Part shown: one piece after another, positions 1,514-20,646 of the stretch
How positions within the stretch are numbered: the first letter of the stretch is position 1
How the letters are laid out: every line of letters begins with the position of its first letter
DNA from: a bacterium
Lineage (GTDB): Bacteria > Oederibacteriota > Muellerivitia > Muellerivitales > Muellerivitaceae
Assembly: GCA_035549195.1 (NCBI GenBank)
Contig: DASZRK010000029.1
Location: 1 to 51,574, forward strand
Length of the DNA: 51,574 nucleotides
Reading direction: 5' to 3'
The notes under the pieces: model-generated
Database searches by the model: none
The model's input: only the letters and a program-made list of their open reading frames with translations
What the model was told of the DNA's origin: nothing
Program-made: the position numbers and the translations under genes

Positions 1514-1527
1514 TTTGACCGGTTCAA
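1514..1527. promoter_or_regulatory. Operator-like palindrome upstream of the GH18 gene
   Basis: TTTGACCGGTTCAA is a two-base variant of the perfect palindrome TTGAACCGGTTCAA found before two other enzyme genes here. It lies about 105 bases before the GH18 start. The CG-centred dyad has the shape of a LacI-family operator (inference). Confidence 0.55.
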
Positions 1528-1631
1528 CGGATAAAGTGACATCAGAATCGCCGGAAATGGACATCGCTATTTTCGGCTTCTGGTAACGTTTCCTCGTCGG
1601 GACCGATCCATTTTCCTTTGAAGAGGGGAAC

Positions 1632-3950
1632 GTGAGAGAGCTTCGCGTGGGTGCTTTGGGGCGCGGCCTACTGAAAACGATTTCAAGACGTCCGGCGATC
1701 TTCCCCTTCCTTCTGTTCATTTCTTGCGTGATCCCGAAGGCCTGGGCCGCCCCGCCCTACCAGGTGGTTTGTTACGCCCTGCAGGACACCAAGTCCAGCA
1801 CCTCCAGCCTCACCGGGAGCGCCGGGGCCATCAACTGGAACAGCGACGTGCCTTGGGGCGACCTGACGGTCATCGCGGACGCCTTTTACCAGCCCAACGC
1901 CAACAAGACCTTCACCAACGTGGGGGCCAAGGGGAACACCCTCATTACGGCCGCCCACAGCCACGGGGTGCGCTGCATCGTGTCCCTGGGCGGGGCAGGG
2001 CAGGATGGGGCCTTCGCCACCCTCTGTTCCTCGGCCAACCGGGCGGCCTTCGCCTCGGCGGTCAGCAACCTAGTGGCGACCAACGGCTACGACGGCGTGG
2101 ACATCGACTGGGAGACCCCCGGGGCCGCGCCCCAGGCGGACGCCACCGCGATGATGCAGCTCATCTACCAGGACATCAAAGCCCTGCCCAATTCCACTTT
2201 CGACAACCAGCCCCGGACGGTCTCCTTCGCGACGGTGGATTACGTGCGGGACATCTACAACATGACCACCCTGGGGAGCTACACCGACTGGTGCTTCTAC
2301 ATGGGTTACGATTGGTACGACTGTCCCAACAAGTACAACGGTCCCCTGAACCTCATCAAGAACGGGATCGCGGCCATGACCAATGGGAGCCATTGGGCCT
2401 ATCCCCTCTCCAAGATGGTCCTGGGATGTCCCCTTTACACCAACGATTACGACGGCGGTTGCGGGGCCCAGGAATACCAGACCCTTTCCACCCTCCATTT
2501 GGGGACGGCCGGGGCCTACAACGCGACCTATGCGGAGCAGTCCTACACGGCGAACGGCCATCAGGTCTATGTGGACACGGCCCAGAGCTATTGCGACAAG
2601 ATCAATTGGGCCGTCGGGTCGGGTTTGCGGGGTATCGGCATGTGGGACCTGGGCCAGGGCCTGCCCTATACCGACAGCCTGATGTCGCCCATCTGGGACG
2701 TCATCGGCGGCAACAGCGCCTGTCTGACGGTCGTGGGCTCGACGCCCACCCCGACCCGGACGGCTTCGATGACGCCTACGGCGTCCCTCACCGCTACACC
2801 TTCGGCTACGCCAACGCGGACTTCGACGGCCACCGCCACCGCGACGAATTCGGCCACCCGCACGAATACTTCCACGGAGACCGCTACGTCCACCTTCACG
2901 CGGACGGCTTCGATGACACCTACGGCCTCCCTCACCGCTACGCCTTCGGCTACGCCAACCCGCACTTTCACGGCCACTTCGACCAACACGGCCGCCAACA
3001 CTTCGACCCATACCGCGACGGCCACCGCCACCCGGACGAACACTTCCACTGGGACCGCCACCGCTACCTTTACGCGGACGGTTTCGATGACGCCTTCGGC
3101 GTCCCTCACCGCTTCGCCTTCGGCTACGCCAACTCGCACTTTCACGGCGACTTCCACCAACACGGCCACCAATACCGCGACCTCTACGGTGACTTCGACC
3201 CCGACGGTGACCTCGACCTCCACGAATACTTCGGTCATTACGCCGACCCCGACGGATTCGATGACGCCTACGGCGTCCCTCACCGCTTCGCCTTCGGCTA
3301 CGCCAACACGCACGTTCACCGGGACTTCCACCGTGACTTCGACCCCGACGATGACGTCCACTCCAACGCTGTCGCCTACCGCGACCGCGTCTTCGACGTC
3401 CACAAGGACGGCGACGGATTCGATGACGGCTACGCCGTCCCTCACCGCTTCGCCTTCGGCTTCGCCCACGCACACGCCGATGCAGCCCACGAATACCTTC
3501 ACCTCGACCGCGACGCCCACGGCTACTTCGACATTCACCCTGACGAGGACATCCACCCCCAGTTCCACGCCGACCACCACGTCAACTCCGACCCATACCT
3601 TCACTCGAACCTTTACTCCGACGGCGACGAGGACCTCGACCGCCACGGCGACTTCGACCCCGACCCCGAACGGCAATGGACGGCCCGTCGTTTATCCCAA
3701 CCCGGCTCCGGGTCCCACGGTGAACCTCTTGCCGCCGCCCTATCCGGGGATCGGGACGGTCGAAGTGGATGTCTTCACCGGCGCTTTCCGAATGGCGGCC
3801 CATTGGGAGTTCGCCAATGTTCCATCGGGGGTTTCCGTGGTCGTTCCCTTGACCGATGGCCGTGGTTCTCCTCTGGCCAACGGGATCTATTACCTGAGGG
3901 TCCGTACTCCGGCGGGTCACTTCCTGACCAAGTTGCTGGTCCTTCGCTGA
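1632..3950 (+). CDS. GH18 chitinase-like secreted enzyme
   Basis: This is a predicted secreted glycoside hydrolase of family 18, acting on chitin or another GlcNAc polymer. The GTG start is preceded by AGAGGGG. A signal peptide covers roughly residues 1-40 and ends ...IPKAWA|APP. The GH18 barrel (about 41-370) contains the DxxDxDxE motif as DGVDIDWE, D154 to E161, with E161 the expected acid/base. The barrel ends with LRGIGMWDLGQGLP. A Thr/Pro/Ser linker of about 310 residues follows, then the shared C-terminal domain (VYPNPAPGPTV ... FTGAFRMA ... LANGIYYLRV ... KLLVLR). At 772 residues it is long for the family because of the linker. An operator-like palindrome lies upstream. Substrate is not proven by sequence; endo-beta-N-acetylglucosaminidase is an alternative. 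Confidence 0.9.
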   Translation: MRELRVGALGRGLLKTISRRPAIFPFLLFISCVIPKAWAAPPYQVVCYALQDTKSSTSSLTGSAGAINWNSDVPWGDLTVIADAFYQPNANKTFTNVGAKGNTLITAAHSHGVRCIVSLGGAGQDGAFATLCSSANRAAFASAVSNLVATNGYDGVDIDWETPGAAPQADATAMMQLIYQDIKALPNSTFDNQPRTVSFATVDYVRDIYNMTTLGSYTDWCFYMGYDWYDCPNKYNGPLNLIKNGIAAMTNGSHWAYPLSKMVLGCPLYTNDYDGGCGAQEYQTLSTLHLGTAGAYNATYAEQSYTANGHQVYVDTAQSYCDKINWAVGSGLRGIGMWDLGQGLPYTDSLMSPIWDVIGGNSACLTVVGSTPTPTRTASMTPTASLTATPSATPTRTSTATATATNSATRTNTSTETATSTFTRTASMTPTASLTATPSATPTRTFTATSTNTAANTSTHTATATATRTNTSTGTATATFTRTVSMTPSASLTASPSATPTRTFTATSTNTATNTATSTVTSTPTVTSTSTNTSVITPTPTDSMTPTASLTASPSATPTRTFTGTSTVTSTPTMTSTPTLSPTATASSTSTRTATDSMTATPSLTASPSASPTHTPMQPTNTFTSTATPTATSTFTLTRTSTPSSTPTTTSTPTHTFTRTFTPTATRTSTATATSTPTPNGNGRPVVYPNPAPGPTVNLLPPPYPGIGTVEVDVFTGAFRMAAHWEFANVPSGVSVVVPLTDGRGSPLANGIYYLRVRTPAGHFLTKLLVLR

Positions 3951-4057
3951 TCGGGACGGTCCATCGAACGGATCGAACCTCGCTTGGCTTGAACGAGAAA
4001 GAGAACGCCAGTCCTCCAGCCGCAGAAAAAACCCGAAAAAAGTTTTAGAGAGTTCCG

Positions 4058-4077
4058 GGATCCATTGGGTCCTTTTT
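4058..4077 (+). terminator. Weak rho-independent terminator-like hairpin
   Basis: GGATCC, loop ATT, GGGTCC, then five T. The stem is only 6 bp with one wobble, about 108 bases after the GH18 stop codon. It may end the GH18 transcript. Confidence 0.3.
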
Positions 4078-4088
4078 GAGCCAATTTC

Positions 4089-4117
4089 TTGTCCCTTTTG
4101 GTCCCGGGCGGTATATT
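4089..4117 (+). promoter_or_regulatory. Sigma70-type promoter for the GH51-like gene
   Basis: The -35 TTGTCC (4089-4094) and -10 TATATT (4112-4117) are separated by exactly 17 bases. The operator-like palindrome lies about 80 bases downstream, between this promoter and the start codon, where a bound repressor could block elongation. Confidence 0.5.
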
Positions 4118-4197
4118 TTTTCCGAAGTTCCAGTGTTTGAACGTCTTTCCACCCCACCAACACAGGACCTTGCCCGGCTAAATAAATTGCAATTTCA

Positions 4198-4211
4198 TTG
4201 AACCGGTTCAA
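4198..4211. promoter_or_regulatory. Perfect operator palindrome TTGAACCGGTTCAA
   Basis: This is a perfect 14-base palindrome centred on CCGG, 20-26 bases before the possible start codons of the next gene. An identical copy lies at 8601-8614, and near copies lie at 1514, 17092 and 20633. Confidence 0.65.
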
Positions 4212-4231
4212 GAAAACGATTTAAACGACAG

Positions 4232-7200
4232 GTGAGCATGCCCGTTCTCCGGTTCAAGTACCTTTCCTTCTATATTCTCCTCCCGATCGTCCTTTTCCTC
4301 ATCGCCGCTCCTTCCATGGCCGCCGGTGTTTCCGTCACCGTCAACGCCGCCTCGGCCATCCGGACCATTCCGGACACCCTTTTCGGCCAGAACATGTCCG
4401 TCTATGACGGTTCCGCGACGGCGGGCAACACGAACTATGTGAATGCCCTGAGCGCCATGGGGACCTACAACCTTCGCTTCCCGGGTGGGAGCTGGTCCGA
4501 CGGCGTGGACTGGAGCAACCTGGAGAACGGGCCGGCCCCGGGCTGTTCCTCCGGCTCCTACATCATCAACATCAGCGAGGGGATCGCCTTCGCCAAGGCC
4601 GCCAACGTTCCACTCCAATGCATCGTGAACTACGGGGGCTATTGGTGTCCCGGGGGCGCCACCAGCCATGGCCACGCGGCGGCGGTGTCGCTGGCGTCGG
4701 CCTGGGTCAATTACATGAACAAGGGAGCGGGGAACTACAAGGTCACCTATTGGGAAGTGGGGAACGAGATCTTCGGGAGCTGGGAGAACGGCTACGAGAC
4801 GAACGGCACCAATTACGGGAACAACTTCGTGGACTTCTACAACGCCATGAAGGCCGTGGACAGCACCATCAAGGTCGGGGCCATCTGCCAGGACGAGTCG
4901 GGATGGATGCCCTGGTCGGAGGCGGCCCTTTCCGCCATCAAGGCCAAGGGCGTCACGCCGGACTACCTCATCTCCCACGCCTATCCCATCGGGAACGCCG
5001 CGGACAACACGACCGTGGACAACCAACTGCTCACCACCGAAGTGGACGCCGCCACGACCCGCACCAGCGAGATGAACACCATCCTGTCCACGGCGGGTTT
5101 CACCCCCGGCAGCATCCCCTATTGGATGACCGAATACCGTAGCACTGCGCCCGAGCAGAAGACGGTGGAGTGGGTGGACGCCATGTGGAGCGCCCAATAC
5201 CTGCTGGAACTCGGCCGGAACGGTTGGCAGGGCGCGAACATCTGGGCCATCAAGAACGGGTTCAGCTCGGCGGTCACCTCGGACTTCGGGCTTTTGCGCG
5301 GCGGCAGCGCTAATTCGGACGACACCCCCGCCAACAACCCCCGGCCGGCCTGGTACATCTTCCCCTACCTCTCCAAGGTCTTCGGGCGGAACCTGGTCTC
5401 CGCCACGACCAGCCTGGCGGCCCAACGCTGCTGGGCCTCGAAGGACGCGTCGGGCAACCTAACGGTCTTCACCGTGAACAATACGGCCACCAGCAATACG
5501 GTCACCATCACCGTCTCGGGCTTCTCGCCGGGGACCTCGGGCAACATCTGGACCCTGGCCCCGGCGGGCACGACCAAGTCGGGGGCTTCCACCCCGGCCC
5601 AGGAACTCCGTTGGATCAGCGTCAACGGCACCACGAACCCGGCGGTCTCCGCCGTGCCTGGAACGGGCAACTCCATCACTACGGGGGCCAGCTTCCCGGT
5701 GACGGTCCCGGCCTACAACATGGTCTTGGTCAAGGTCCCGCCCGGCGGCACGCCGGTCCCCACCTCCACCCCGACCCGTACCGTGACGCCCACGCCCACC
5801 CAGTGCACGATCCTCCTGAACGGGACGAACTCCCTGACCGAGAACGGGACCTGGAGCGGGGTGAACGCCACCCGGAGCATCGCGACCTCGGGCCTGCCGT
5901 CGGGCATGCCCTCGGAGGGGTCGGGGGCCCTGCAGGTCCATATCACGACCGGGTCCGCCTATAACGCCGACATCGCCAACCTGGCGGGGTTCTCCCCGGC
6001 GGTCTTCGGGTCCGCGGTGCAGCTCCAAATGGAGGTGAACGCCGCCGCCACGCTGGTCTCGGCCTTGGGCGGCTGGCATAGCCTCGTCCTGGTGGCCGAT
6101 TCCTCCGCCGGACCGGTCACGACCTGGCAGTCCATCTCCTCCGATTCCCCGACCTTGGTGGCGGGCCAGCAGACCCTGACCTTCAACCTGGACTATCCCC
6201 AGGCCATCACTTCCGCCTCCGCCCTGAGCACCCTGCGGATCGTCCTCAACGCCCAGAACGCGGCCGTCGGCGACCTTTTCATCGACAACATCCGGCTGGT
6301 CAATTCCTGCGGGATCGCCACCCCGACCTTCACCCCGACCCGCACCCCCACGCCCTGCTCAGCGCTTTTCAACGGCTGCCAGAGCGCCGTCGAGAACGGG
6401 ACTTGGAGCGGGAACAACGCGACCCGGACCTTCGTGAATTCCGCCGGGGCGGTGGCCGGGATGCCCTCCCAAGGGACGACCTGCATGAAGGTCCAGGTGA
6501 CCACCCCCAGCGGTTACAACAACGACCTCTTCAACCTGAGCGGCTTCACCCCGACCGATCTCTATGGGACCACCCGTATCTCCATGGACCTCTACGCCGA
6601 TGCCGCCCTGGTCGGCGGCGGCTACAACCAGTTGATCCTTTTCGCCGACTCCGGCCCGAACGGCATTTCCTACCAGGGCCTGTCCTCCACGGTCCCCACG
6701 GTGGTGGCAGGTCTACAGACCCTGACCTGGACCATCGATTTCCAGAACCCCGGGGGAGGGGCCAGCTCCCTCACCTCGGCCATGCCCATCACCAAGCTCT
6801 ATTTCGTCTACAACACCGGCGCCCCGACGGCCCTGGGGAACTTCTACGTGGACAACATCCAGTTCCTCCACGACGGGTGCATCCCGACCCACACGCCCGT
6901 CCCGACGGCTACGCCCACCCGCACGGCCACTTCGACCCCCACCAACAGCCCCACGCGGACGCCTTCGTCCACGCCCACGAGCACCAGTAGCCCGACCGCC
7001 TCGCCCAGCATGACCCTTACGTCCTCGCCCACGGCGACGCGCACTTCGACCCCCACGGCTTCGATGACGCCGACGGCGTCCCTTACGGCTACGCCTTCGG
7101 CTTCGCCAACCCGTACCTCCACCTCGACAGCGGCCAGTACGGCGACTTCCACCCCGTCTTCCACGGCAAGCCGCACGGCCACTTCCACCGCCTCCAATAG

Positions 7201-8443
7201 CCCGACGGCGAGCGCCACCTCCAGCTTCACCCCGACCTCCACGCCTACCCGGACGGCTTCGATGACGTCCACGGCTTCGCCCTCCTCGACCCCAACGGTC
7301 ACCCGTACCTTCACGAATACCGATGTCATCACGCCCACCCCGACCTCGACCCCCACGGTCACCGTGACCTCCACGGCCAGCGGTACTCCGACGTCCACTT
7401 TCACGAATACCCCGACCGCGACGGCTTCGCCCTCTCGGACATCCACTTCGACCTCGACGGCGACCGCCACCTTCACCATGACCCTCACCGGGACCCCCAC
7501 CTCCACTCCGACGATCACCCCGACCCCCACTAACACCGATGTGATCACCCCGACGCCGACTTCGACGGGGACGATGACCTTCACACCTTCCCCGACCGCC
7601 ACTTATTCACCGACCCCGACCTTTACGTCGACTTCGACGGATTCGATGACGCCTAGCGCGACAGCCTCCAGCACTCCAACGCCTTCATCGACATCAAGCT
7701 GGACGGCGTCCCTCACCGCTTCGCCTTCGGCTACGCCAACACGAACGTTCACCGGGACTTCCACCGTGACTTCGACCCCGACGGTGACGGCGACTTTCAC
7801 GAACACCAATGTCATCACGCCCACCCCGACCTCCACGGGGACTTCGACCGGAACCTCGACGGCTTCGACTACGGCGACTACGTCGCCTAGCGCGACAGCC
7901 TCCAGCACTCCAACGGCTTCATCGACATCGAGCTGGACCCTCACCGCTTCGCCTTCGGCTACGCCAACTTGGACCTCCACTTCGACCCCGATGGTGACCT
8001 TCACCCCATCCGCTACCGCTACTCGGACCCCTACATCGACCTCCACGGTCACTTTCACCCCAACCTTCACCCTGACCCCTTCTTTCACCCCGACGGTCAC
8101 GCTGACCCCGACGCCCAGTTCAACATCCACCAAGACCTCTACGGCCACCGGCGTTCCCAAAAAGGGCGGGGTCGTTCCTTATCCCAATCCGGTGTCCGGG
8201 CCTGGCCCCATTTCGGTCCAGATCACCCTGATCCAGCCGGAAAGCGATGTGAAGCTCACGGTCTTCACGACGGCTTTCCGGAAAGTGAATGAAATGGACC
8301 TGGGCGCACTGCCGATCGGGGTCTATCAAGTCGGTCTGTCCCTCAGGGACAAAGCGGGTGCGGACCTGGCCAATGGCCTTTATTACATCGTGGTCCATAG
8401 TTCGGAAGGCCGGTTTATCGGAAAACTCCTGATCTCCCGCTAG
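4232..8443 (+). CDS. Secreted clan GH-A (GH51-like) arabinofuranosidase-type enzyme with duplicated binding domains
   Basis: This is a predicted secreted enzyme cutting plant hemicellulose or pectin side chains. GTG 4232 or ATG 4238 could start it; AGGTGA lies very close, so the choice is unsure. The signal peptide ends ...APSMAAG. The barrel (about 35-400) has YWEVGNE with E179 as likely acid/base and YWMTEYRS with E301 as likely nucleophile, the spacing of clan GH-A. A beta-sandwich follows to about 505. Two homologous domains of about 180 residues come next (each begins C-x-L-x-NG and carries ENGTWSG-N-ATR, ending in F-I/V-DNI); they are probably carbohydrate-binding. A Thr/Pro linker of about 420 residues and the shared C-terminal domain (PYPNPVSG ... 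[11 protein letters not shown] ... LANGLYYIVV ... KLLISR) finish the 1403 residues. The family assignment is by motif only; GH39 or GH30-like families remain possible. Confidence 0.85.
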   Translation: MSMPVLRFKYLSFYILLPIVLFLIAAPSMAAGVSVTVNAASAIRTIPDTLFGQNMSVYDGSATAGNTNYVNALSAMGTYNLRFPGGSWSDGVDWSNLENGPAPGCSSGSYIINISEGIAFAKAANVPLQCIVNYGGYWCPGGATSHGHAAAVSLASAWVNYMNKGAGNYKVTYWEVGNEIFGSWENGYETNGTNYGNNFVDFYNAMKAVDSTIKVGAICQDESGWMPWSEAALSAIKAKGVTPDYLISHAYPIGNAADNTTVDNQLLTTEVDAATTRTSEMNTILSTAGFTPGSIPYWMTEYRSTAPEQKTVEWVDAMWSAQYLLELGRNGWQGANIWAIKNGFSSAVTSDFGLLRGGSANSDDTPANNPRPAWYIFPYLSKVFGRNLVSATTSLAAQRCWASKDASGNLTVFTVNNTATSNTVTITVSGFSPGTSGNIWTLAPAGTTKSGASTPAQELRWISVNGTTNPAVSAVPGTGNSITTGASFPVTVPAYNMVLVKVPPGGTPVPTSTPTRTVTPTPTQCTILLNGTNSLTENGTWSGVNATRSIATSGLPSGMPSEGSGALQVHITTGSAYNADIANLAGFSPAVFGSAVQLQMEVNAAATLVSALGGWHSLVLVADSSAGPVTTWQSISSDSPTLVAGQQTLTFNLDYPQAITSASALSTLRIVLNAQNAAVGDLFIDNIRLVNSCGIATPTFTPTRTPTPCSALFNGCQSAVENGTWSGNNATRTFVNSAGAVAGMPSQGTTCMKVQVTTPSGYNNDLFNLSGFTPTDLYGTTRISMDLYADAALVGGGYNQLILFADSGPNGISYQGLSSTVPTVVAGLQTLTWTIDFQNPGGGASSLTSAMPITKLYFVYNTGAPTALGNFYVDNIQFLHDGCIPTHTPVPTATPTRTATSTPTNSPTRTPSSTPTSTSSPTASPSMTLTSSPTATRTSTPTASMTPTASLTATPSASPTRTSTSTAASTATSTPSSTASRTATSTASNSPTASATSSFTPTSTPTRTASMTSTASPSSTPTVTRTFTNTDVITPTPTSTPTVTVTSTASGTPTSTFTNTPTATASPSRTSTSTSTATATFTMTLTGTPTSTPTITPTPTNTDVITPTPTSTGTMTFTPSPTATYSPTPTFTSTSTDSMTPSATASSTPTPSSTSSWTASLTASPSATPTRTFTGTSTVTSTPTVTATFTNTNVITPTPTSTGTSTGTSTASTTATTSPSATASSTPTASSTSSWTLTASPSATPTWTSTSTPMVTFTPSATATRTPTSTSTVTFTPTFTLTPSFTPTVTLTPTPSSTSTKTSTATGVPKKGGVVPYPNPVSGPGPISVQITLIQPESDVKLTVFTTAFRKVNEMDLGALPIGVYQVGLSLRDKAGADLANGLYYIVVHSSEGRFIGKLLISR

Positions 8444-8550
8444 CCTCAGAGCGCGGGAAGGTCTTGGAAAAGTTGCGGGATGTTCCGTCCCCGGAAAGCC
8501 TTTACCCAAAATTCCCCTGTAACCTTTGGCGGCCGCTCACGATAGTTCGG

Positions 8551-8556
8551 TATGAT
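8551..8556 (+). promoter_or_regulatory. Candidate -10 box TATGAT before the PL4 gene
   Basis: TATGAT lies about 100 bases before the PL4 start and 45 bases before the operator palindrome. No good -35 box was found at 16-18 bases, so this is weak. Confidence 0.3.
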
Positions 8557-8600: not shown

Positions 8601-8614
8601 TTGAACCGGTTCAA
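8601..8614. promoter_or_regulatory. Perfect operator palindrome TTGAACCGGTTCAA
   Basis: Identical over all 14 bases to the site at 4198-4211. It lies 38 bases before the PL4-type lyase gene, whose stop overlaps the GH28 gene, so it may control both. Confidence 0.65.
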
Positions 8615-8652: not shown

Positions 8653-11600
8653 ATGAGGTCGATGATCGCGAAACGCTTAAAACAATTTTTCTTTCTGCTT
8701 TCCTTCCTATTCTTGGAAGCGCTTCCGCTTTGGGCCAATGTCCCCGGCGGGGGCACGGGGACCGGCGGCAACGTCACGGTCACCGACAACGGCGGCACCG
8801 TGGTCCTGGCCAACGGCATCGTGTCCGTCACCATCAATAAATCCAACGGCAACATCACCAATTTCACCTACAACGGGACCAATCTGCTCTCGGGGGGGCA
8901 CGGGGGCGGTTACTTCTATTGGGATGGTTCCGGTGGGCCGACGCTCTCGAGCGCCGTTTACACCTTGAGCGTCAATCCGTCCGGTAACGGAGGGAACCAG
9001 GCGGAGGTCTGGCTCCAATCGACCGCCGATCCGATGGATATGGCCGTCTATTACGACCTCAACCGCGGCCAGCAGGGCATCTACGTGACCATGATCCTCA
9101 CCCACCAATCCGGTTATGCCGACTATCCGGGGGCGGAACTGCGGTCGAACGTCTATGTTGGTTCCATCTTCGACTGGCTTTGCGTGGATCCTTACCGTTT
9201 CCGTCAGATGGCCTCGCCCAACGACAGTTCGGTGGCCGTGGCGGGCGCGCCCGCCGAGGTCACCCAATGGACCAGCGGGATCTACAACGGTCTCACGGAA
9301 TGCAAATACGCCTATAGCGCTCCCCTTGGCCAATTGGACACCTGGGGCTGGGCTTCCAGCAGTTCGGTCGACGGCATCTGGCAAGTGCTCCCGAGCCATG
9401 AGTATTACGATGGCGGGCCCATGCACCGGGAACTCACCGAGCACATCGGCAACACGCTCCTGAACATGTTCGGCGGCGGGCACTATGGATTCGGATCGAC
9501 CCAGGACCAACCGGCCGGGACCTTCTCCTCCAAGACCTTTGGCCCGGCTTTTATTTACGCCAACAAGTACACGGGATCCGCCGGCGACCCCGTCTCCCTC
9601 AAGGCCCGGACCCTTTGGGCCGACGCCCAGGCCCAGGCCGCCGCCGAACAGGGCGCTTGGCCCTATACCTGGTTCCATCCCCAGACGCCCAGCGGAATGA
9701 GCGGCTCCCCCTATCCCCAGGACAGCGGGCGGGGGACCGTGAGCGGGACCCTGGCCATCAACGATCCCAACAACCCCGGCGCCTCACCGGTGAGTCTCTG
9801 GATCGGTTTGGCGCCGGATAACGGCGGGACCGATTTCCAGCAGCAATACCTGACCTACCAGTTCTGGGTGCGCACCGGGGCCGGAGGGAGCTTCTCCATC
9901 CCGCACGTTTTGCCCGGCGCCTACAACCTCTGGGCCTTCGGTCCGGGCGCCATCGGTACCTTCAAGCGGACCGGGGTCAATGTGAACGCGGGTTCCACCG
10001 TCAACCTGGGCACGGTCACCTGGGGCCCGTTGCGCTTGGGCCCCACCGTCTGGGAGATCGGGACGCCGGACCGGGATTCCAACGAATTCTTCAACGGGGA
10101 ACATTCGCTCACGCCCTATAACGGCGCCCTTCCGCGCTACGCGGGCGGCGCTCCCTATAACAGCCCCACCGCCTGGGGCGCCTTCCTGGATTACGCGAAC
10201 CAGTTCCCGGGCGGGGTCAGCTTCACGGTGGGGAGCAGCAACCCGGGGACCGATTGGAACTACTGCCAACCCACCACCTATACGGGATCCGCCTACACCG
10301 GGACGACTTCCCGGATCTATTTCAACCTTGCCTCCGCGCCCTCGGCGGCCCAGACCGCCCGGCTTTATATCGCCTTTGCCTCGAATTACAGTTCCGCCTG
10401 CATCTTGACGGTCAATGGGACCGTCCAGACCGCCGCGGTCATGGGGTCCACCAACGGCCAATACGCGTCCATCACCAATCCGGCGACGGGTTTTTATCCC
10501 CCGGCCCACAGTTTTGACAGCATTGTCCGCCTGGGTTCGCAGGGTGCCTGGGGGGACGCCTACCTGGACTTCGCGGCCAACAAGCTCCACGCGGGGACGA
10601 ACGAGATCGATATCGGCATGCGGCCCGCCGGCGGCGCGGGCAATGGGAACGGGTTCGAATACGACTATTTGCGCCTGGAAATGACGGGATACAGTTCTTC
10701 GTCCTCACCGACGGCTACGCCCACCAGGACGTCGACGGCGACATGGACCGCGTCATCGTCCCCGACGGCCACGGCTTCGACTACGCCGACTCCGTCGGCT
10801 ACGCTCACCGCTACGCCTTCGGCTTCGCCCACCAAAACCTTCACGGCGTCGGGGACTCCGACAGCCACTTCGACCCGGACCTTTACGGCGACGGCCTCGA
10901 ACACGTCTTCGTCCACGGCGACGGCCACGCGCACCCATACCCCGGTGCCGCCTACGAACACTCCCACCATCACGGCGTCTTCCACGTCCACGGCGACGAG
11001 GACGGCCACGGCTTCGACTACGCCGACTCCGTCGGCTACGCCCACAAAGACCAATACCATGACGGCCACGTTCACCTGGACCAGCACCCCGACGGCTTCG
11101 ACTACGGCGACTCCGTCGCCTACGCTCACCGCTACGCCTTCGGCTTCGCCAACGCCCACGCCGGTTCCACCCACGAATACCTTCACCTCGACCGTAACGT
11201 CCACCGCCACGATGACGCCGACGGCTTCGATGACGCCTAGCGCGACAGCCTCCAGCACTCCAACGCCTTCATCGACATCAAGCAGTTCGATGACGGCTAC
11301 GCCTTCCCTCACTGCGAGCTGGACGCCGTCCCTCACCGCTTCGCCTACGCACACGCCCGTGCCGCCAACAGCCACTTTCACGAACACGAATAGTCCTGTT
11401 CCGCCGACGGCTACCTTCACAAATACCAATAGTCCGGTGCCGCCCACGTCTACCTCGACCCGTACCTTTACGGAAACCTCCACAAATACACCCACGAACA
11501 CCGCCGTTCCTCCGACGGCCACCATGACCCGGACCTTCACTTCCACAGCCTCGGGAACCCCCACCCCGACGAACAGCTTCACTGCCACCTGGACCTTGCC

Positions 11601-11976
11601 CCCCACCTTTAGCTACACGCCGACGGTTACCCCGACATTGACCTGGACTTCAACTCCTACCTTCCCACTCCTCACTCCTACCTTCACGCCGGGGACCGGC
11701 GTGACCGCGGTGATCTATCCGAACCCGGCGACCGGGGATGGCTTCAACATCCAGGTGACGGGGATGACCACGGTGGACAAGGTCCAGGTGCAGGTGGAGA
11801 CAACGGCCTTCCGCAAGGTGAACGAGATGACCTTCCATAGCCAAGGGCCGGGGACGGCGATCCTGGCCGTGCCCGCGACGGACGCTTCGGGCGCGCCGCT
11901 GGCCAACGGGGTCTATTACGTGATCGTCCGCACCGAAGGCGCACGGATCACCCTGAAATTGATGGTGCTACGTTGA
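8653..11976 (+). CDS. PL4-type rhamnogalacturonan lyase, secreted
   Basis: This enzyme is predicted to cleave the rhamnogalacturonan I backbone of pectin by beta-elimination. ATG 8653 was taken; ATG 8662 is an alternative. The signal peptide ends near residue 29 (...[10 protein letters not shown]). The order fits three-domain PL4 lyases: an N-terminal beta-sandwich catalytic domain opening with [15 protein letters not shown] (about 35-350), a carboxypeptidase-regulatory/FnIII-like domain (GTVSGTLAI ... [20 protein letters not shown], about 355-460), and a CBM-like domain beginning [17 protein letters not shown] (about 465-680). A Thr/Pro linker of about 330 residues and the shared C-terminal domain ([12 protein letters not shown] ... 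[12 protein letters not shown] ... [10 protein letters not shown] ... KLMVLR) follow. The TGA overlaps the ATG of the GH28 gene, so the two pectinases are probably co-translated. The last 235 bases are almost identical to the end of that gene. Confidence 0.88.
10926..11222 (+). repeat. Linker-coding repeat, copy 1
   Basis: About 297 bases within the PL4 Thr/Pro linker match 13421-13717 in the GH28 linker without gaps and with only scattered substitutions. The match runs from the [10 protein letters not shown] coding segment to the codons before SMTPSATAS. It marks recent recombination or duplication between the two genes. Confidence 0.8.
11740..11976 (+). repeat. C-terminal-domain repeat, copy 1
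   Basis: Near-identical to 14298-14534. In the first 205 bases only two substitutions were counted by eye, both silent (AC[A] to AC[G], GC[A] to GC[G]); the last 30 bases diverge more. Such DNA identity in an otherwise diverged pair suggests gene conversion. Confidence 0.85.
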
Positions 11977-14534
11977 TGCACTGGGTCCCCAAACCGCCCG
12001 CTTTCGCCGTTTTCCTGTTCCTTGGCGCCTCGGTCCAGGCTCAGACCCTCAACATCACTTCCGCTCCCTACAACGCCACCACGGGCAGCACGGACAACCG
12101 GGCCGCCATCCAGGCGGCCATCAACGCGGTGGGGAGCGGCGGGACCGTGCTGGTCCCCTCGGGGACCTTCCTTTCCGGCCCCTTGACATTGAAGAGCAAC
12201 ATGACCTTCCAGATCGCCTCGGGCGGGACCCTCAAGATGACCGCTTTCGGGACCTTCCCCCAGAACACGAGTTTCGTCTATGGGACCAACCTCACCAACC
12301 TCACCCTGAACGGGTCGGGGACCATGGACGGCCAAGGCGCGGCCTGGTGGACGGATTTCAACAACGGCAATCCGGACAACCGGCCCCCAGCCATGATCTA
12401 CCTCTCCAAGTCTTCCAACGTGACCCTGATGGGGATCACGGTCAAGGATTCGCCCAAGTTCCACATCCAAACCCTGGGGTCCATGAACGGGGTCTATTGC
12501 TCGGGCTTGAGCATCACGGCGGCCTGGCCTTCGCCCAACACCGACGGCATCGACCTGAGGGGGAAGAACTACCTGATCGAGAACTGCTACATCAGCGACG
12601 GGGACGACGTCATCCAGATCGGGGGCAGTTCGGACAACTGCCAGGCCATCACCATCCGCAACTGCACCTTCGGCACCGGCCACGGCCTTTCCATCGGGGG
12701 TTACACCCAGGGCGGGGTGAGCGACCTGTTGGTGGACAACTGCACCTTCAACGGCACCCAGTACGGCATCCGGTGGAAGACGGGCCGGGACCGGGGCGGG
12801 GTCATCACCAACCTGACCTACTCCAACATCACCATGACCAACATCCTGCTCTATCCCTTCTTCCTGACCAGCTTCTACCCGAATCCCTCGTCCCTGCCGC
12901 CCACCACCGACGACACCCAGGCCATCACCAGCACCACGCCCTTCTGGAGCAATATCACGCTCCGGAACATCACGGCCACCACGGCTTCCAGCGGCGCCAA
13001 GAGCCCGGGAATTATGTGGGCGGTGGCGGAGGCTCCGGTCTCCAATGTGACGCTCGACGGCGTCACCGTGACGGGTCCCAGTGGGAAGAACTTCGAGTTC
13101 CACCACGCCAGGAACGTGACCATCCTGTGCAATGTCCGGGTGGACGGACAGGCGCCCCCGACCGACATCGGGTCCTTCGACGCGACCATCACCTACCCGC
13201 CCTGCGGGAGCGCCACCAATACCTTCACCCCGACCCGGACGAACACGCCGGTGCCGCCGACGGCGACCTTGACCCGGACCAACAGCCCGACCTCAACCCC
13301 TACTTTCACAGCCACTTCGACCCGGACGGCTTCGATGACGCCTAGCGCGACAGCCTCCAGCACTCCAACGCCTTCATCGACATCAAGCTGGACGGCGTCC
13401 CTCACCGCTACGCCTTCGGCCACGCGCACCCATACCCCGGTGCCGCCTACGAACACCCCCACCGCCACGGCGTCTTCCACGTCCACGGCGACGAGGACGG
13501 CCACGGCTTCGACTACGCCGACTCCGTCGGCTACGCCCACAAAGACCAATACCATGACGGCCGCGTTCACCTGGACCAGCACCCCGACGGCTTCGACTAC
13601 GGCGACTCCGTCGCCTACGCTCACCGCTACGCCTTCGGCTTCGCCAACGCCCACGCCGGTGCCACCCACGAATACCTTCACCTCGACCGCAACGTCCACC
13701 GCCACGATGACGCCGACCAGGACCTTCACGGTGACGGCGGTCCCACCCACCGCTACCGCGACGGCCTCCTCCACGGCGACTTCCACTTCGACCCCTTCGG
13801 GAACGCCCACGAATACGGCGGTCATCACTCCCACGGCGACCTCCACCGCCACCAGAACGGGGACCCCGACCGCCTCTTCCACCTTTACGGTCTCATCGAC
13901 GCCCAGTTCCACCCCCACCCCGAGCTTCACCGCCTCTTTCACGCCCTCGAGCACCGCCACGAGAACCTTCACGGCGACGGCGGTCCCACCCACGGCTACC
14001 GCGACGGCTTCGATGACGCCTAGCGCGACAGCCTCCAGCACTCCAACGCCTTCATCGACATCAAGCTGGACGGCGTCCCTCACCGCTTCGCCTTCGGCTA
14101 CGCCCACCCGGACTTTCACCCCGACGAACAGTTCCACCGCCACCTGGACCTGGACCCCCACGGGGACGCCCACCCCCACCCTGTCACAGACGCCTACGGC
14201 GACGCAGACAGGGACTCCGTCCTTCAGCCCCACCCTCACGCCCACGGCGGGGAACGGGATCCAGGCGGTGATCTACCCGAACCCGGTGTCAGGGGACGGC
14301 TTCAACATCCAGGTGACGGGGATGACCACGGTGGACAAGGTCCAGGTGCAGGTGGAGACGACGGCCTTCCGCAAGGTGAACGAGATGACCTTCCATAGCC
14401 AAGGGCCGGGGACGGCGATCCTGGCCGTGCCCGCGACGGACGCTTCGGGCGCGCCGCTGGCCAACGGGGTCTATTACGTGATCGTCCGCACCGAAGGCGC
14501 GCGGATCATCCTCAAATTGATGGTCTTGCGATGA
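11976..14534 (+). CDS. GH28 polygalacturonase, secreted
   Basis: This enzyme is predicted to hydrolyse polygalacturonan (pectin). The ATG overlaps the previous stop as TGATG, which is why it is preferred over an upstream TTG. The signal peptide ends about residue 17 (...GASVQAQ). The right-handed beta-helix covers about 18-410 and carries all GH28 signatures: NTDGID (D190), DGDD (D210, D211), GTGHGLSIG (H236) and R266-W-K268, so the catalytic and substrate-binding residues look intact. A Thr/Pro linker of about 350 residues and the shared C-terminal domain ([12 protein letters not shown] ... [10 protein letters not shown] ... [10 protein letters not shown] ... KLMVLR) follow. It forms a pectin-degrading pair with the PL4 lyase just upstream. 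Its exact mode (endo or exo) cannot be read from the sequence. Confidence 0.92.
13421..13717 (+). repeat. Linker-coding repeat, copy 2
   Basis: Gapless near-copy of 10926-11222, here in the GH28 gene. A shorter cassette reading [14 protein letters not shown] recurs on both sides of it and in other linkers of the block. Confidence 0.8.
14298..14534 (+). repeat. C-terminal-domain repeat, copy 2
   Basis: Near-identical to 11740-11976; see that entry. Confidence 0.85.
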
Positions 14535-14677
14535 ATGGTCGCCCTGTCGTTTTTTGATCGTGGATCGCTGAAAAAGAGCGATTTCTAACGGGTCGGTCAG
14601 GTCTTGGTGGCCTGAGAAAGGGCCAAGTTCGTTCCAACATAGGCGCTTTATCATTAAATTATTTGCCCCGTGGATGG

Positions 14678-14716
14678 CACTGAAAATGCACCTGGAACCA
14701 GGCAATATTTTCAGTG
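14678..14716. promoter_or_regulatory. Nested inverted repeat before the Kelch-type gene
   Basis: Outer arms CACTGAAAAT (14678-14687) and ATTTTCAGTG (14707-14716) are perfect complements. They enclose inner arms CCTGG (14691-14695) and CCAGG (14698-14702). The structure ends 18 bases before the ATG and is followed by TTTT. It could be a leader hairpin, an operator or a terminator. Confidence 0.5.
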
Positions 14717-14734
14717 TTTTCCGAGTGGGGTCCA

Positions 14735-16195: not shown

Positions 16196-16200
16196 GGGGC

Positions 16201-16935
16201 TCAGCCCCGGGTGAAGCCGGCCAGCCACTCCAGGAGGGCCTTGGGGGAAGGGAAGCGCAGGTCCGAGTAACGCTTGGGGATACGGGTCCCCACGGCCACC
16301 TTCAAACCTTTTTTCCCGAGCGACTTGAAGACCGACAGGTCCGTGATGTCGTCCCCCGCATAGACCACCCGGTGGTCGGGAAAATGCCGGACGATCTTTT
16401 TCACCGCCTTGCCCTTGTTGAACCCCCTCGGCTTCGCCTCCAGCATCATCTTGCCCGCCATCAGGTCCCAGCGTTCCAAGGTGACGCTCCGCCGGAAGAT
16501 CGCCCGGAATCCGCGCTCCAAAGACCGGACCTGGGCGGGGGACAGGGCAACGCCCCGGTAATGGAGGGTCGAGGAATAGGGTTTGTGCTCGATATGGATG
16601 CCGGGGAACCGGCGCAGGAGCGGCTGGACCGCTTTCCAAAGCCCTTGGGCCTCCTTGGCGTAGAAACGTTCCTGGGCCGGGCTGGCCAAGCGGAGGTGCT
16701 TGGGCAGGTTCCGGCTTTCAAAGCCGTGGGTCCCCACCATGGGGAAGTGGGGGAGGCCGGAGACCTTCCGGAGGCTTTTCAGGTAACGCCCGCTGATGAA
16801 GATGACCGGGTATCGCTTGCGCAGTCCCTGAAGGACCTTCTTCGCCCGGGGTGAAAGCAGGGAACGCTCCGGGTCCCGTTCGAAGTCAGTGAGGGTGCCG
16901 TCGTAGTCCAGCAAGAATAGGTGGGGTCGATCCAT
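16201..16935 (-). CDS. otsB: Trehalose-6-phosphate phosphatase
   Basis: This enzyme removes phosphate from trehalose 6-phosphate to give trehalose, normally an osmoprotectant. It is a HAD-superfamily protein of 244 residues, typical for OtsB. Motif I is LLDYDGTLTD with D10 (nucleophile) and D12; motif II is IFISGR; the metal-binding motif IV is VYAGDDITD with D195-D196. No OtsA synthase is present in the window, so the substrate must come from elsewhere. TATAAT lies only 6 bases before the ATG, so the transcript may be leaderless. The gene is on the opposite strand to all its neighbours. Confidence 0.88.
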   Translation of the reverse strand: MDRPHLFLLDYDGTLTDFERDPERSLLSPRAKKVLQGLRKRYPVIFISGRYLKSLRKVSGLPHFPMVGTHGFESRNLPKHLRLASPAQERFYAKEAQGLWKAVQPLLRRFPGIHIEHKPYSSTLHYRGVALSPAQVRSLERGFRAIFRRSVTLERWDLMAGKMMLEAKPRGFNKGKAVKKIVRHFPDHRVVYAGDDITDLSVFKSLGKKGLKVAVGTRIPKRYSDLRFPSPKALLEWLAGFTRG

Positions 16936-16941
16936 GGGGGG

Positions 16942-16947
16942 ATTATA
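16942..16947 (-). promoter_or_regulatory. TATAAT -10 box giving a possibly leaderless otsB transcript
   Basis: On the minus strand TATAAT is followed by CCCCCC and the otsB ATG. With usual spacing, transcription would start at or next to the A of ATG. No consensus -35 box was found. Confidence 0.4.
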
Positions 16948-16970
16948 GCCAATCCCACTGCGGGACCTTG

Positions 16971-17022
16971 GAACAGGGATGGACAGCGATGGACCCGGAT
17001 GGGCATCCCGTTGATCCGTCCT
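16971..17022. repeat. Probable dispersed GGATGGAC-type repeat remnant
   Basis: The stretch contains GGGATGGACAGCGATGGAC and then CATCCCGTTGATCCGTCC, an imperfect inverted pattern like the 'acaggatggacaggatgg' repeats common in environmental genomes. Only one copy is in the window. Confidence 0.3.
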
Positions 17023-17091
17023 GAAGGCAGGTGGGTTCCCCCTTCGGAGGATCGATATCGGCGTTCGTCCTTGTTCCTTCGAGCTCCATAT

Positions 17092-17105
17092 TTTGACCGG
17101 TTAGA
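17092..17105. promoter_or_regulatory. Operator-like half palindrome before the AraC gene
   Basis: TTTGACCGGTTAGA matches the first 11 bases of the 1514 site and lies 93 bases before the regulator's start codon. It would place the regulator in the same regulon as the enzymes. Confidence 0.45.
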
Positions 17106-17198
17106 CCCATATCAAATTCTTGCCCTAGCCCTTACTCCCGGGGGACCCCCGTGATAAACTTGTAAAGTTATTGTCGAACCCCTATCAATGGATTGCGC

Positions 17199-19028
17199 AT
17201 GAAACGCCCCAGGATCGACCTAAGGACCGGGACCGCCAGCGAGGCCGCCACGCCTCCTTGGCTTTCGCGCGTGCTTTCCAACAATGCGGTCATCAACCTT
17301 TTCACCGACTATGTCTCCTTGCCGTGCTACGTCGTGGACCGTCGCCAGCCCGACCTCTGGTACACCCTGGCCGCCCCCTCGGGCGATCCCTCGCCCTTCC
17401 AGTTCGAGCTCTATTTCGGGAAGAAGGCGGATCGCCTTCGGTACAACCATGATTGTTTCGAGAAGGCCGCCCATTTGAAAAAGGGCGTCCTGGAACAGCA
17501 TTCGGGACTTTGGGATTACTTCGCCCCCGTGCTGCAGAACGGCAAATGCGTGGCCTATGTGGTGTCCGGTTCCTTCCAGCGGACCATCCCATCCTTCGAG
17601 GCCTTGTCCAAGCAATTCAGCCTTTTGGCCGGGAAGGCGCCGGGCCTGGCGGACCCCATCTTCAACGATTACGCCCGGATCCTCCTGCAGACCTCCCTGA
17701 TCTCCGATCAGGCCCTCCCCGACTACCGGAAGCTCATCGACGCGCTGGCGAAGTTCGTGGCCGAGGAAAGGCCCGACCCGGGTTTCCTGGGCCAGGTGGA
17801 GAAAATGAAGGCCCAGGTCTTCTCGCAGCACATGGCCAACCGCATGTGGCATTACAGCCAGGTCAAGCGTAACCGCCTCCTTTGGGGGCCCTGGCAGGGG
17901 AGCGAACTGGCGCCCTGGGACCGGGATGAATTCCACCTGACCCGCCATCCCAACACGGTGCTGGCGGTCATGCTGGGCCGGGAGGGCGCGGTGGCCACCA
18001 GCGAGGTGCGGTCCATGGTCCAGTCGGCCCAGATGCAATGGGCCTGCTTCGAGATGGTGCGGCAACTTCCCGAGACGGTCTGCGGCAAGATGGAGAACCA
18101 GGGGGCCTTCTTCCTGACCTCCACCGATCCGAAGCGGAACGCCGCCCAAGCCCGCCTGCAGGTCCGGGACATGGCCATGGCCATCGAGGAACAATTGCGC
18201 AAGAAGTTCAAGACCTCGGTCTTCGTGGGCATCTCCCGTCTGGACCACGCCACCGAGGAACTGCCCGAGGCCTTCCAGGAATCCACCCTGGCCCTCCACC
18301 TGGGCCTGCACCATCAGAAGTCCCAGGTCTTCTACCAGGACCAATACGAGGCCAAACCCGAGAACACCGAGTTCACGGTCCTTCATTGGGCGGTGAAGCT
18401 GGTGGAGGCCTGCGGCCGGGCGGAGGAGAAGGAGATCCGGCTCATGCGGGAGGAATACGTGCGGGAAGCCCTGCGGGCCTCGGCGGAGAAAGCGGAGGTC
18501 CTGCGGGTCCATCTCATCCAGCTGCTCTTCATGCTGATGGAGACGGTCCAGAAACGGGCTCTGGTGGTGGAACCCCAATTCACCACCCTTTCGAAGGAAT
18601 TGTCGGAGAAATACACCGGGGCCCTGACCTCGGCCGAGCTGTTGGGCCTTTTCCGCTCCCACCTGGAGTTCTTCTCGAACCTTTTCCAATCCCCCCTGAG
18701 GGGGGAGCGCAACTTCCGCTTGGAGCGGGCCAAGGATTACATCGCCCAGAACTTCCAAAGGTCCCTTTCCCTGACCGAGGTGGCCTCCCGGACGGGCTTT
18801 TCGGTCTCCCGTTTCAGCCGCTGCTTCAAGGAGTCCTTCGGCATGGGTTTCTCCGACTACCTGCTCCAACTGCGCTGTGACCACGCCCGGCGCCTGTTGG
18901 AGACCACCCGCCTTTCCATCGGCCAGATCGCCCAGGACTGCGGCTTCCAGTCCGCCAGCTATTTCATCCAGCAGTTCAAGCGCCGGTCGGGTCAGACCCC
19001 CCAGGCCTTCCGCCAGCAAAAGGGATGA
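17199..19028 (+). CDS. AraC-family transcription regulator with large N-terminal sensor
   Basis: This is a DNA-binding regulator, 609 residues from the ATG; an upstream in-frame TTG at 17193 is less likely. The C-terminal 100 residues are an AraC/XylS double helix-turn-helix: first helix pair SLTEVASRTGFSVSRFSRCFK, second LSIGQIAQDCGFQSASYFIQQFKRRSGQTP. The N-terminal part (about 25-130) has the look of a PocR-type ligand-sensing domain (INLFTDYVSLPCYVVDR ... HDCFEKA ... YVVSGSF), although this was not tested. The middle (about 160-480) is helical and resembles the GGDEF-like/coiled region of YesN-type regulators. No kinase or permease partner adjoins it. It sits between the pectin block and the amino-sugar cassette and could control either. 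Confidence 0.85.
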   Translation: MKRPRIDLRTGTASEAATPPWLSRVLSNNAVINLFTDYVSLPCYVVDRRQPDLWYTLAAPSGDPSPFQFELYFGKKADRLRYNHDCFEKAAHLKKGVLEQHSGLWDYFAPVLQNGKCVAYVVSGSFQRTIPSFEALSKQFSLLAGKAPGLADPIFNDYARILLQTSLISDQALPDYRKLIDALAKFVAEERPDPGFLGQVEKMKAQVFSQHMANRMWHYSQVKRNRLLWGPWQGSELAPWDRDEFHLTRHPNTVLAVMLGREGAVATSEVRSMVQSAQMQWACFEMVRQLPETVCGKMENQGAFFLTSTDPKRNAAQARLQVRDMAMAIEEQLRKKFKTSVFVGISRLDHATEELPEAFQESTLALHLGLHHQKSQVFYQDQYEAKPENTEFTVLHWAVKLVEACGRAEEKEIRLMREEYVREALRASAEKAEVLRVHLIQLLFMLMETVQKRALVVEPQFTTLSKELSEKYTGALTSAELLGLFRSHLEFFSNLFQSPLRGERNFRLERAKDYIAQNFQRSLSLTEVASRTGFSVSRFSRCFKESFGMGFSDYLLQLRCDHARRLLETTRLSIGQIAQDCGFQSASYFIQQFKRRSGQTPQAFRQQKG

Positions 19029-19080
19029 TCGGGGCTCGTGATGATTTACAAGATGAAAAATAAGATCCGATAATGACTTT

Positions 19081-19100
19081 TGAAAATCAATTTATTTTCA
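19081..19100. promoter_or_regulatory. AT-rich inverted repeat in the AraC-SIS gap
   Basis: TGAAAAT, spacer CAATTT, ATTTTCA: perfect 7-base arms, 27 bases before a small membrane-protein ORF. Possible operator or hairpin. Confidence 0.35.
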
Positions 19101-19127
19101 CGACGAGAATGATGAGGATCGAACGTA

Positions 19128-19298
19128 ATGAGATTATCCAGTTTTGATAATCTGTGGTTGTACCAAATCGTTATGTACATATTCGTTCCGATTTTATTTT
19201 TGCTTGGGATTTATGCTATTGGGCTCTTGGTCAAATTTAGGGAGAAGGGAATTAAAAAACTTAGAAAACTAATAAAGTTCAGAAAGCGAAATTTTTAA
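19128..19298 (+). CDS. Small single-span membrane protein, hypothetical
   Basis: A 56-codon ORF in the AT-rich gap between the AraC and SIS genes. The product begins MRLSSFDNLWLYQIVMYIF, has one hydrophobic segment (about residues 12-35, through PILFLLGIYAIGLLV) and ends in a strongly basic tail (KFREKG ... KFRKRNF). GAGGA lies about 10 bases before the ATG. Base composition is far more AT-rich than the neighbours, pointing to foreign origin or an unusual small protein. Positively charged inside suggests an N-out topology. No family was recognised. The rest of this 436-base gap holds the inverted repeat at 19081 and nothing else I can identify. Confidence 0.45.
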   Translation: MRLSSFDNLWLYQIVMYIFVPILFLLGIYAIGLLVKFREKGIKKLRKLIKFRKRNF

Positions 19299-19464
19299 CC
19301 ACCATTTAGTACCGTTGCTGTAGCAACCTTGATGTTTTGCTTTGAGGAATGTGCCTGTAAAGTCGATTTTCATTGACGATAAAAAACTGATATTAAAAAG
19401 TGTATAAAACGATATACCCCTTTTTCCTTTTCGGCGAAGCTAAGGCCGAAAGAAAGGGGTTCCC

Positions 19465-20511
19465 TTGAACACCACCCAAACCCTGATGGAAAAAGAGATC
19501 CAGGAAAGCCCCCGGGTGCTCCGGAGGTTCCTGGTCCGCCAGTGGAAGGCCCTGGCCGACGCAGCCGAGGCCGTGGCGGCGCGCCGCCCCAAGTTCGTCA
19601 TCCTGGCCGCCCGCGGCACCTCCGACAACGCCGGCACCTATGCCCGCTACCTGATCGAGAAGGAATGGGGCATCCCCGTCTCCCTGGCCGCTCCCTCCAT
19701 CATGACCCTCTATGGCGGCAAGGTGGACTACGAGGGCGGGCTGGTCCTGGGCGTCTCCCAATCGGGCGAGGGGCCGGACGTCTGCTCCATCATCCAGAAG
19801 GCCCGCTCCCAGGGGGCGCTGACCATCGGCATCACCAACAACCCCAAGTCCCGGCTGGCCCGGGAAGCGGAGTTCGCCATCGACATGATGGCCGGCCCGG
19901 AAAAGAGCGTGGCCGCCACCAAGACCTACACGGCCGAACTGCTGGTCCTCTACGGCCTCATCGAATGCGTGGTCAAGGGCCGCAAGGTCCGCGCCGAACT
20001 GGCCCAGGTGCCCCGCCTGGTCGAGGAAGGCTGCCGCCTGTCGCGGGCGGTCTGGGAATCCTCCTACCGTTTCCTCCATCTCTCCTCCTGCGTGGTCGTG
20101 GGCCGCGGTTTCCACTACGGACTCGCCCAGGAAGCCGCCCTGAAGCTCAAGGAATGCGCCCAGGTCATGGCCCATGCCTACTCGACCGCCGATTTCCACC
20201 ACGGTCCCAAGACCCTGGCGGGGAAGGATTTCCCGGTCATCCTCCTGGCGCCCCCGGGACAGACCCTGAAGGGGACCCTGGAACTTTTGGACGAGCTCAA
20301 CGAACGCCAGGCCCTGGTCATGGCCTTCAGCCCGGTCAAGGCGGTGCTCAACAAGGCGGCCATCCCCCTGGAAACGCCGGCGGGGAGCGAGATCCTCAAT
20401 CCGATCGGAATGGCGCCCATGCTACAGACCCTCGCTTTGGCGGTGGCGACGGCGAAGGGATTGAACCCGGACCAGCCGCCCTATTTGAAGAAGGTGACGC
20501 AAACGCACTAA
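19465..20511 (+). CDS. SIS-type glucosamine-6-phosphate deaminase/isomerase (NagB-II/GlmD-like)
   Basis: Two sugar isomerase (SIS) domains without the glutaminase half of GlmS. It probably converts glucosamine 6-P to fructose 6-P plus ammonia in the cytoplasm. TTG 19465 is the start because AAAGGGG stands 5 bases before it; the next ATG (19486) has no ribosome site. SIS motifs seen: ILAARGTSDNAGTYARYL, LVLGVSQSGEGPDV and SVAATKTYTAEL in the first domain, then VVGRGFHYGLAQEAALKLKE and AYSTADFHHGPKTL in the second. The 348-residue length fits NagB-II. Neighbouring ROK kinase, PIG-L deacetylase and GH18 genes support a role in GlcNAc/GlcN use. AgaS-like tagatose-6-P isomerase is an alternative. 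Confidence 0.85.
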   Translation: MNTTQTLMEKEIQESPRVLRRFLVRQWKALADAAEAVAARRPKFVILAARGTSDNAGTYARYLIEKEWGIPVSLAAPSIMTLYGGKVDYEGGLVLGVSQSGEGPDVCSIIQKARSQGALTIGITNNPKSRLAREAEFAIDMMAGPEKSVAATKTYTAELLVLYGLIECVVKGRKVRAELAQVPRLVEEGCRLSRAVWESSYRFLHLSSCVVVGRGFHYGLAQEAALKLKECAQVMAHAYSTADFHHGPKTLAGKDFPVILLAPPGQTLKGTLELLDELNERQALVMAFSPVKAVLNKAAIPLETPAGSEILNPIGMAPMLQTLALAVATAKGLNPDQPPYLKKVTQTH

Positions 20512-20526
20512 GGAGTATTTGAAGAA

Positions 20527-20553
20527 CTCTCGAATTCCAGTGGAATTTGAGAG
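20527..20553. terminator. Hairpin after the SIS gene
   Basis: Arms CTCTCGAATTCC (20527-20538) and GGAATTTGAGAG (20542-20553), 12 bp with one G-T pair and a 3-base loop, 15 bases after the stop. There is no T-run, so factor-independent termination is doubtful; it may be an attenuating or stabilising hairpin. Confidence 0.35.
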
Positions 20554-20581
20554 CCGTCGGCTGAGGGTGGAGTTGATAGAA

Positions 20582-20617
20582 GATCTTTCAGCCGGCCGGG
20601 TGACGCAGACACACTGA
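20582..20617 (+). pseudogene. Possible 3' remnant of a second SIS gene
   Basis: Read in frame this gives ...DLSAGRVTQTH-stop, echoing the end of the intact SIS gene just upstream (YLKKVTQTH-stop). The bases GTGACGCAGACACACTGAG differ from GTGACGCAAACGCACTAAG at only a few positions. It is short, so chance or a short tandem copy cannot be excluded. Confidence 0.3.
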
Positions 20618-20632
20618 GCGGGATTTTTACAA

Positions 20633-20646
20633 GCTGACCGGTTCAA
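20633..20646. promoter_or_regulatory. Operator-like site before the TIM-barrel/ABC-binding operon
   Basis: GCTGACCGGTTCAA shares TGACCGGTTCAA with the 1514 site and lies 54 bases before the ATG at 20700. It links the amino-sugar operon to the same putative regulon. Confidence 0.55.

Follow-up and report, generated by a model that had tools for sequence, protein, structure and literature searches.

Introduction

Regulators of the LacI family bind operators of a characteristic form: of the 1303 LacI motifs examined in one study, 1173 are even palindromes with a central CG, and sites are typically placed between -140 and -30, with less than 1% of those known located in coding regions (PMC4052901). 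Global members of the family, defined by control over more than 15 genes in at least seven operons of several pathways, include CcpA, FruR, PckR, GapR and GluR (PMC4052901). A published recognition code links Arg-20 of the protein to a G in position 6 of the half-site; positions 5-4 depend on residues 15-16, and position 2 is linked to residue 55 (PMC2978694).

The closest printed operator that we found to the palindrome analyzed here is TGAAACCGGTTTCA, bound by the LacI-family regulator PtxS (2-ketogluconate, Pseudomonas), which is likewise a 14-base even palindrome with a AACCGGTT centre and has its sites near the transcription start of a sugar-acid regulon. The two differ at half-site position 6 (G for PtxS vs. 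T here) and in the outer half-site, and PtxS serves few local operons, whereas many scattered secreted hydrolases are concerned here. Membership in the PtxS type, i.e., TGAAACCGGTTTCA before ketogluconate operons and ptxS, does not apply, as both half-site and target genes differ, and the present palindrome, TTGAACCGGTTCAA, was not found as a printed operator in the literature searched.

Results

Candidate operators and adjacent genes in the window

The window, i.e., the whole analyzed stretch of 51,574 nucleotides, is contig C29 of an 80-contig, 3.2 Mb genome. The original prediction described a CCGG-centred palindrome of LacI-type geometry with two perfect and three near copies. Its geometry (even, with a central CG) is as stated, and the window scan finds exact TTGAACCGGTTCAA at 4198-4211 and 8601-8614, in agreement with the two perfect copies. 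The near copy at 1514 has two mismatches; those at 17092 and 20633 have four each, which makes the label generous for them; the latter two have the TGACCGGTT / ACCGGTT core in common, plus one good half-site each. A copy with two mismatches at 49746, TTGGACCGGTTCCA, is an addition to the earlier set. The features are as follows.

1514..1527: candidate operator TTTGACCGGTTCAA, two mismatches, ~104 bp upstream of GTG 1632 (GH18)
1632..3950, + strand: GH18 glycosidase gene behind the 1514 site (Pfam PF00704, E 5e-28)
4198..4211: perfect candidate operator TTGAACCGGTTCAA, 20-26 bp upstream of the start of the next gene
4232..8443, + strand: 1403-aa secreted-type protein, N-terminal part of GH39/GH51 type (weak PDB sequence match)
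8601..8614: perfect candidate operator TTGAACCGGTTCAA, 38 bp upstream of ATG 8653
8653..11976, + strand: PL4 (rhamnogalacturonan lyase) gene, overlapping with the gene that follows
11973..14534, + strand: GH28 (polygalacturonase/rhamnogalacturonase) gene, 4 bp overlap with the PL4 gene
17092..17105: weak site TTTGACCGGTTAGA, four mismatches, ~93 bp upstream of AraC-gene ATG 17199
17193..19028, + strand: AraC-family regulator gene, C-terminal HTH
20633..20646: weak site GCTGACCGGTTCAA, four mismatches, right half perfect, 53 bp upstream of ATG 20700
20700..24813, + strand: operon of a 351-aa protein, a solute-binding protein and a GH18/CBM30 protein
49746..49759: candidate site TTGGACCGGTTCCA, two mismatches, between divergent genes, relevance uncertain

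The predicted gene identities (GH18, GH51-like, PL4-GH28, AraC and a binding-protein operon) hold, with the GH51-like protein better described as GH39/GH51-type: its sequence matches in PDB are a GH39 beta-xylosidase (5e-10) and GH51 arabinofuranosidases (6e-4), and it ends in a FlgD_ig domain. For the 351-aa protein encoded at 20700, which the original prediction labelled a TIM-barrel, neither Pfam nor PDB gave a sequence match, leaving the label a tentative one, and the minus-strand gene beside the 49746 site encodes a SnoaL-like protein. The sites share further details with each other and with one upstream of a LacI gene on contig C39: the CGTTTGACCGGTTCAACGG flanks are the same at 1514 and C39, the left half of the 17092 site is the same as in both of these, and the 20633 site is one of 16 occurrences of the ten-mer ACCGGTTCAA outside called genes (see below).

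As a separate observation, a C-terminal FlgD_ig domain is common to the secreted enzymes encoded at 265-1440, 4232-8443 and 8653-14534 of the window, and CHU_C or Por_Secre_tail domains are present elsewhere, which suggests a common sorting signal of the type IX secretion kind.

Genome-wide enrichment and placement

At up to three mismatches, the window holds seven copies vs. a shuffle mean of 2.4, and one of 100 shuffles reaches seven; this excess is only modest, and a genome-wide test was therefore needed. A matrix refined iteratively on intergenic sequence converged on generic AT-rich DNA, and fixed patterns were used with 131 permuted half-palindromes as controls. Genes were called with a simple codon model on 75% of the genome, by a caller that trims signal peptides.

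The scan of the whole genome yielded nine sites with at most one mismatch vs. a permuted mean of 0.16 (max 3, n=131), far from chance; at up to two mismatches, the count is 45 vs. 3.1 (max 27, n=131). Start-proximal sites (-200 to +60, at most two mismatches) number 26 vs. a permuted mean of 0.69 (max 7). The ten-mer ACCGGTTCAA occurs 23 times, 16 of them outside called genes, vs. 0.4 for shuffled ten-mers. Placed between YTNR...YNAR flanks, ACCGGT as core matches 13 sites, 10 of which are outside called genes; none of 20 other palindromic cores in these flanks exceeds nine sites, or one site outside genes. Sites equally common inside genes and before unrelated genes would have spoken against the original prediction; instead, 14 of the 23 ACCGGTTCAA occurrences are start-proximal, a class covering 20% of the genome. 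Given the enrichment over permuted, shuffled and other-core controls, the palindrome is a real, selected DNA element. Its motif, enrichment, position and adjacent genes are all matters of direct observation.

Relative to the start codon, the nine best sites all fall between about -150 and +60. Of these, six are non-coding, 26-142 bp upstream (4198, 8601, KorA, Icd, and sites on C66 and C67). The claim that sites precede genes fails for the other three, which fall in signal-peptide codons of GH5 (LNRFRQ), GH8 (WTGSM) and lipoprotein (LTGSI) genes, a departure from the LacI family, in which fewer than 1% of sites are coding (PMC4052901). These three, in segments trimmed by the gene caller, are a reason to consider that AACCGGTT-type palindromes arise by chance or because signal peptides favor certain codons (LNRF, LTGS), and matches outside the taxonomic family, which lie mostly within genes, point the same way. 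Set against this are the six non-coding sites, the far lower counts of the permuted and other-core controls, and the use of two reading frames by the coding sites, which suggests that DNA rather than peptide is constrained. We regard such an artefact as very improbable.

The GH5 and GH8 genes adjoin on C2:242753-249410, with their signal-peptide sites in different frames. A perfect variant palindrome, TTTGACCGGTCAAA, lies at C12:87158-87171 in a stretch without called genes and supports TTTGACC as a second half-site type.

Target genes and conservation in the family

The designation as a sugar regulon is borne out in part. Carbohydrate genes are numerous among the targets. Outside the window, sites with one mismatch are found at the side-by-side GH5 and GH8 genes and at genes for secreted proteins or lipoproteins (C58, C66 and C67), and sites with two mismatches at GH116, at the LacI gene on C39, and at xylA (xylose isomerase), which is followed by LacI and solute-binding protein genes. 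In support of the expected association with CAZymes, GH/PL genes are first behind five of 13 ACCGGTTCAA sites outside called genes vs. one of 29 random large genes (Fisher ~0.007, hand-computed; same-cluster sites are not independent). But sites also occur at genes of other functions, namely NADP-isocitrate dehydrogenase (Icd; one mismatch, at -130), the 2-oxoacid:acceptor oxidoreductase alpha subunit (KorA; one mismatch, at -142), FolD and glutamate synthase (GltB), with two mismatches each, and a lipoprotein.

The search was extended to seven further genomes of the family. With G004 set apart and our own genome included, the pattern TTNAACCGGTTNAA has 24 occurrences in seven genomes vs. five for the reversed control, and in G004 the counts are zero and two, respectively; at two mismatches, a small excess over the reversed pattern is seen in relatives among the matches listed. 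The excess across the family is real, not large. Outside the family, motif matches are mostly inside genes. In the fetched DNA of relatives, AACCGGTT-cored sites lie before or at starts, namely of genes for a secreted protein (G007), a LacI protein of C12 type and a Kelch protein (both G002) and a DPBB-domain protein (G001); in G005, one lies at the gene just behind the ortholog of the C59 LacI gene. The icd, korA and xylA orthologs of relatives, searched by coordinates, have no strict-pattern site, and the assignment of Icd, KorA and XylA as targets is therefore tentative.

A lack of conservation at orthologs of icd, korA, folD and gltB favors a narrower reading, in which a local LacI regulator serves plant-polysaccharide genes only and these four sites are chance or lineage-specific, as does the fact that about 90% of LacI regulators are local (PMC4052901). 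It is opposed by the Icd and KorA sites, which are truly intergenic and belong to a one-mismatch class expected 0.16 times, and by the spread of targets over at least ten contigs. A local regulon of this kind is possible, at clearly less than even odds.

Relatives also contain short LacI-type HTH frames, one of ~72 aa in G007 (C210; L298:1501-1720), too close to the next gene to accommodate a sensor domain, and others of ~100 aa at G007:C210:18249 and on C41 of G002; these would be either stand-alone HTH proteins or decayed genes.

LacI proteins of the genome as candidate binders

All seven LacI genes of the genome are outside the window, as anticipated by the suggestion that the regulator is encoded elsewhere. 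The half-site has T at position 6, G-A at 5-4 and C at 2. By the published code, the T disfavors the Arg-20 proteins of C12, C40, C2 and C65 and leaves those of C39 (recognition residues I,T,F), C80 (H,T,M) and C59 (K,A,M). The T is compatible with their Phe/Met-20 by the LacI code, which was derived from Arg-20 proteins and is here extrapolated. In agreement with the code, most palindromes found upstream of Arg-20 LacI genes in the fetched DNA have G at position 6. The binder is probably among these three non-Arg-20 proteins. The C12 protein, considered as regulator on account of the site beside its gene type in G002, was rejected and, having both Arg-20 and Arg-55, is more likely a target.

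The C80 LacI gene comes after gap, pgk, tpiA and a gene resembling secG (C80:165243-169897; L080:10243-14897), and its product is 91-98% identical among relatives, most other LacI genes being less conserved. An ortholog was not recognized in G004, where the strict motif is absent and one LacI gene could not be typed, and the gap operon with the C80 gene has no site within two mismatches. We tentatively place this protein first as candidate binder, by a narrow margin and at clearly less than even odds.

A LacI gene with its own site, which the original prediction proposed to look for, does exist: the C39 gene has TTTGACCGGTTCAA 123 bp upstream, but its orthologs in four relatives have ACTAAAA-N-TTTTAGT in place of the site, so that an own site alone does not name the regulator. 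In Cra, the recognition residues are R,T,Y, to which those of C39 are close, and the neighbours of C39 encode a branching-enzyme-like GH57 protein and a ROK glucokinase-like protein. C39 was not found in G002, although G002 has the motif. As the binder, C39 is nearly as likely as C80. The ACTAAAA-N-TTTTAGT element or variants of it are found 40-170 bp upstream of C39-type LacI genes in four genomes (L005:1441-1455; L192-L194), confined to this upstream region within 75% of the own genome, and may be the C39-type gene's own control element.

C59 has a two-mismatch variant site 78 bp upstream, in addition to the site behind its G005 ortholog; we consider it the least likely of the three. A wider contig scan returned LacI homologs that are distant only (30-36% identity).

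An operator of another dimeric family that reads even palindromes (e.g., TetR, MarR or IclR) would account for the finding that no link between a LacI type and the motif is conserved across relatives. Yet the central CG, the spacing, the sugar targets and the LacI genes beside sites (the own site of C39, and those next to the C59-type gene in G005 and the C12-type gene in G002) are all LacI-like, and we consider another family rather unlikely.

Discussion

The palindrome is best read as the operator of a dimeric LacI-family factor acting as a broad carbon regulator, to which we assign a probability of roughly 0.6 on the strength of sequence comparisons. We infer the LacI family, the repression and the effector as follows. 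The recognition helix of each monomer would read the half-site TTGAACC (variant TTTGACC), with the hinge helices inserting at the central CG step, and the dimer bound near start codons would block promoter clearance or elongation. In a sigma-70 scan of the region, promoters near sites were no commoner than in shuffles, which leaves repression, presumably released by a sugar or sugar phosphate, as the simplest mode and the default guess from placement. The factor would act at many unlinked loci, on hydrolases and lyases secreted to degrade polysaccharides, on the uptake and isomerization of sugars, on other regulators (the C39 LacI and perhaps the AraC protein) and perhaps on isocitrate dehydrogenase and the 2-oxoacid oxidoreductase. 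The presence of LacI and AraC genes among the targets suggests a level above local regulators. The type of switch is ordinary; it is the reach that makes the factor look like a global carbon regulator.

A more specific version, in which C80 reads glycolytic flux and switches wall-degrading enzymes, local regulators and enzymes of the 2-oxoglutarate node through CCGG-centred operators that often overlap the start codon or lie within codons of the signal peptide, would amount to a CcpA/Cra-like catabolite system that arose independently in an uncultured phylum. This is a speculative proposal, and we think it improbable.

Overall, for carbon control in a lineage known only from genomes, the analysis supplies a predicted binding motif together with a list of targets and three regulator candidates, and it offers a case on which the published LacI recognition code can be tried beyond Arg-20 proteins. 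Should the LacI protein of the glycolytic operon (C80) be the binder, catabolite control would have arisen independently from the LacI family once more.

Among regulators co-located with glycolytic genes, CggR of Bacillus is encoded in the gapA-pgk-tpi operon, where it precedes gapA, and is not a LacI-family protein. The C80 LacI resembles it in its co-location with gap, pgk and tpi and differs in family and in its place behind tpiA/secG. The operators of Cra/FruR and CcpA are centred on AACGTT and GCGC-like sequences vs. CCGG here, and orthology to either regulator is not supported, as both C39 (CcpA, 152 of 442 bits; Cra, 84 of 385) and C80 (181 of 442; 123 of 385) score far below the NCBIfam equivalog cut-offs. 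The likeness to Cra/FruR and CcpA is in architecture, with one motif before many unlinked genes of carbon metabolism, icd-type central metabolism included (PMC4052901). Measured against the definition of a global LacI regulator, good sites are present at at least ten unlinked loci, with the non-sugar targets not conserved in relatives. The best explanation, judged from genome sequences, would be that this system belongs with the known global LacI regulators as a new case in an uncultured lineage.
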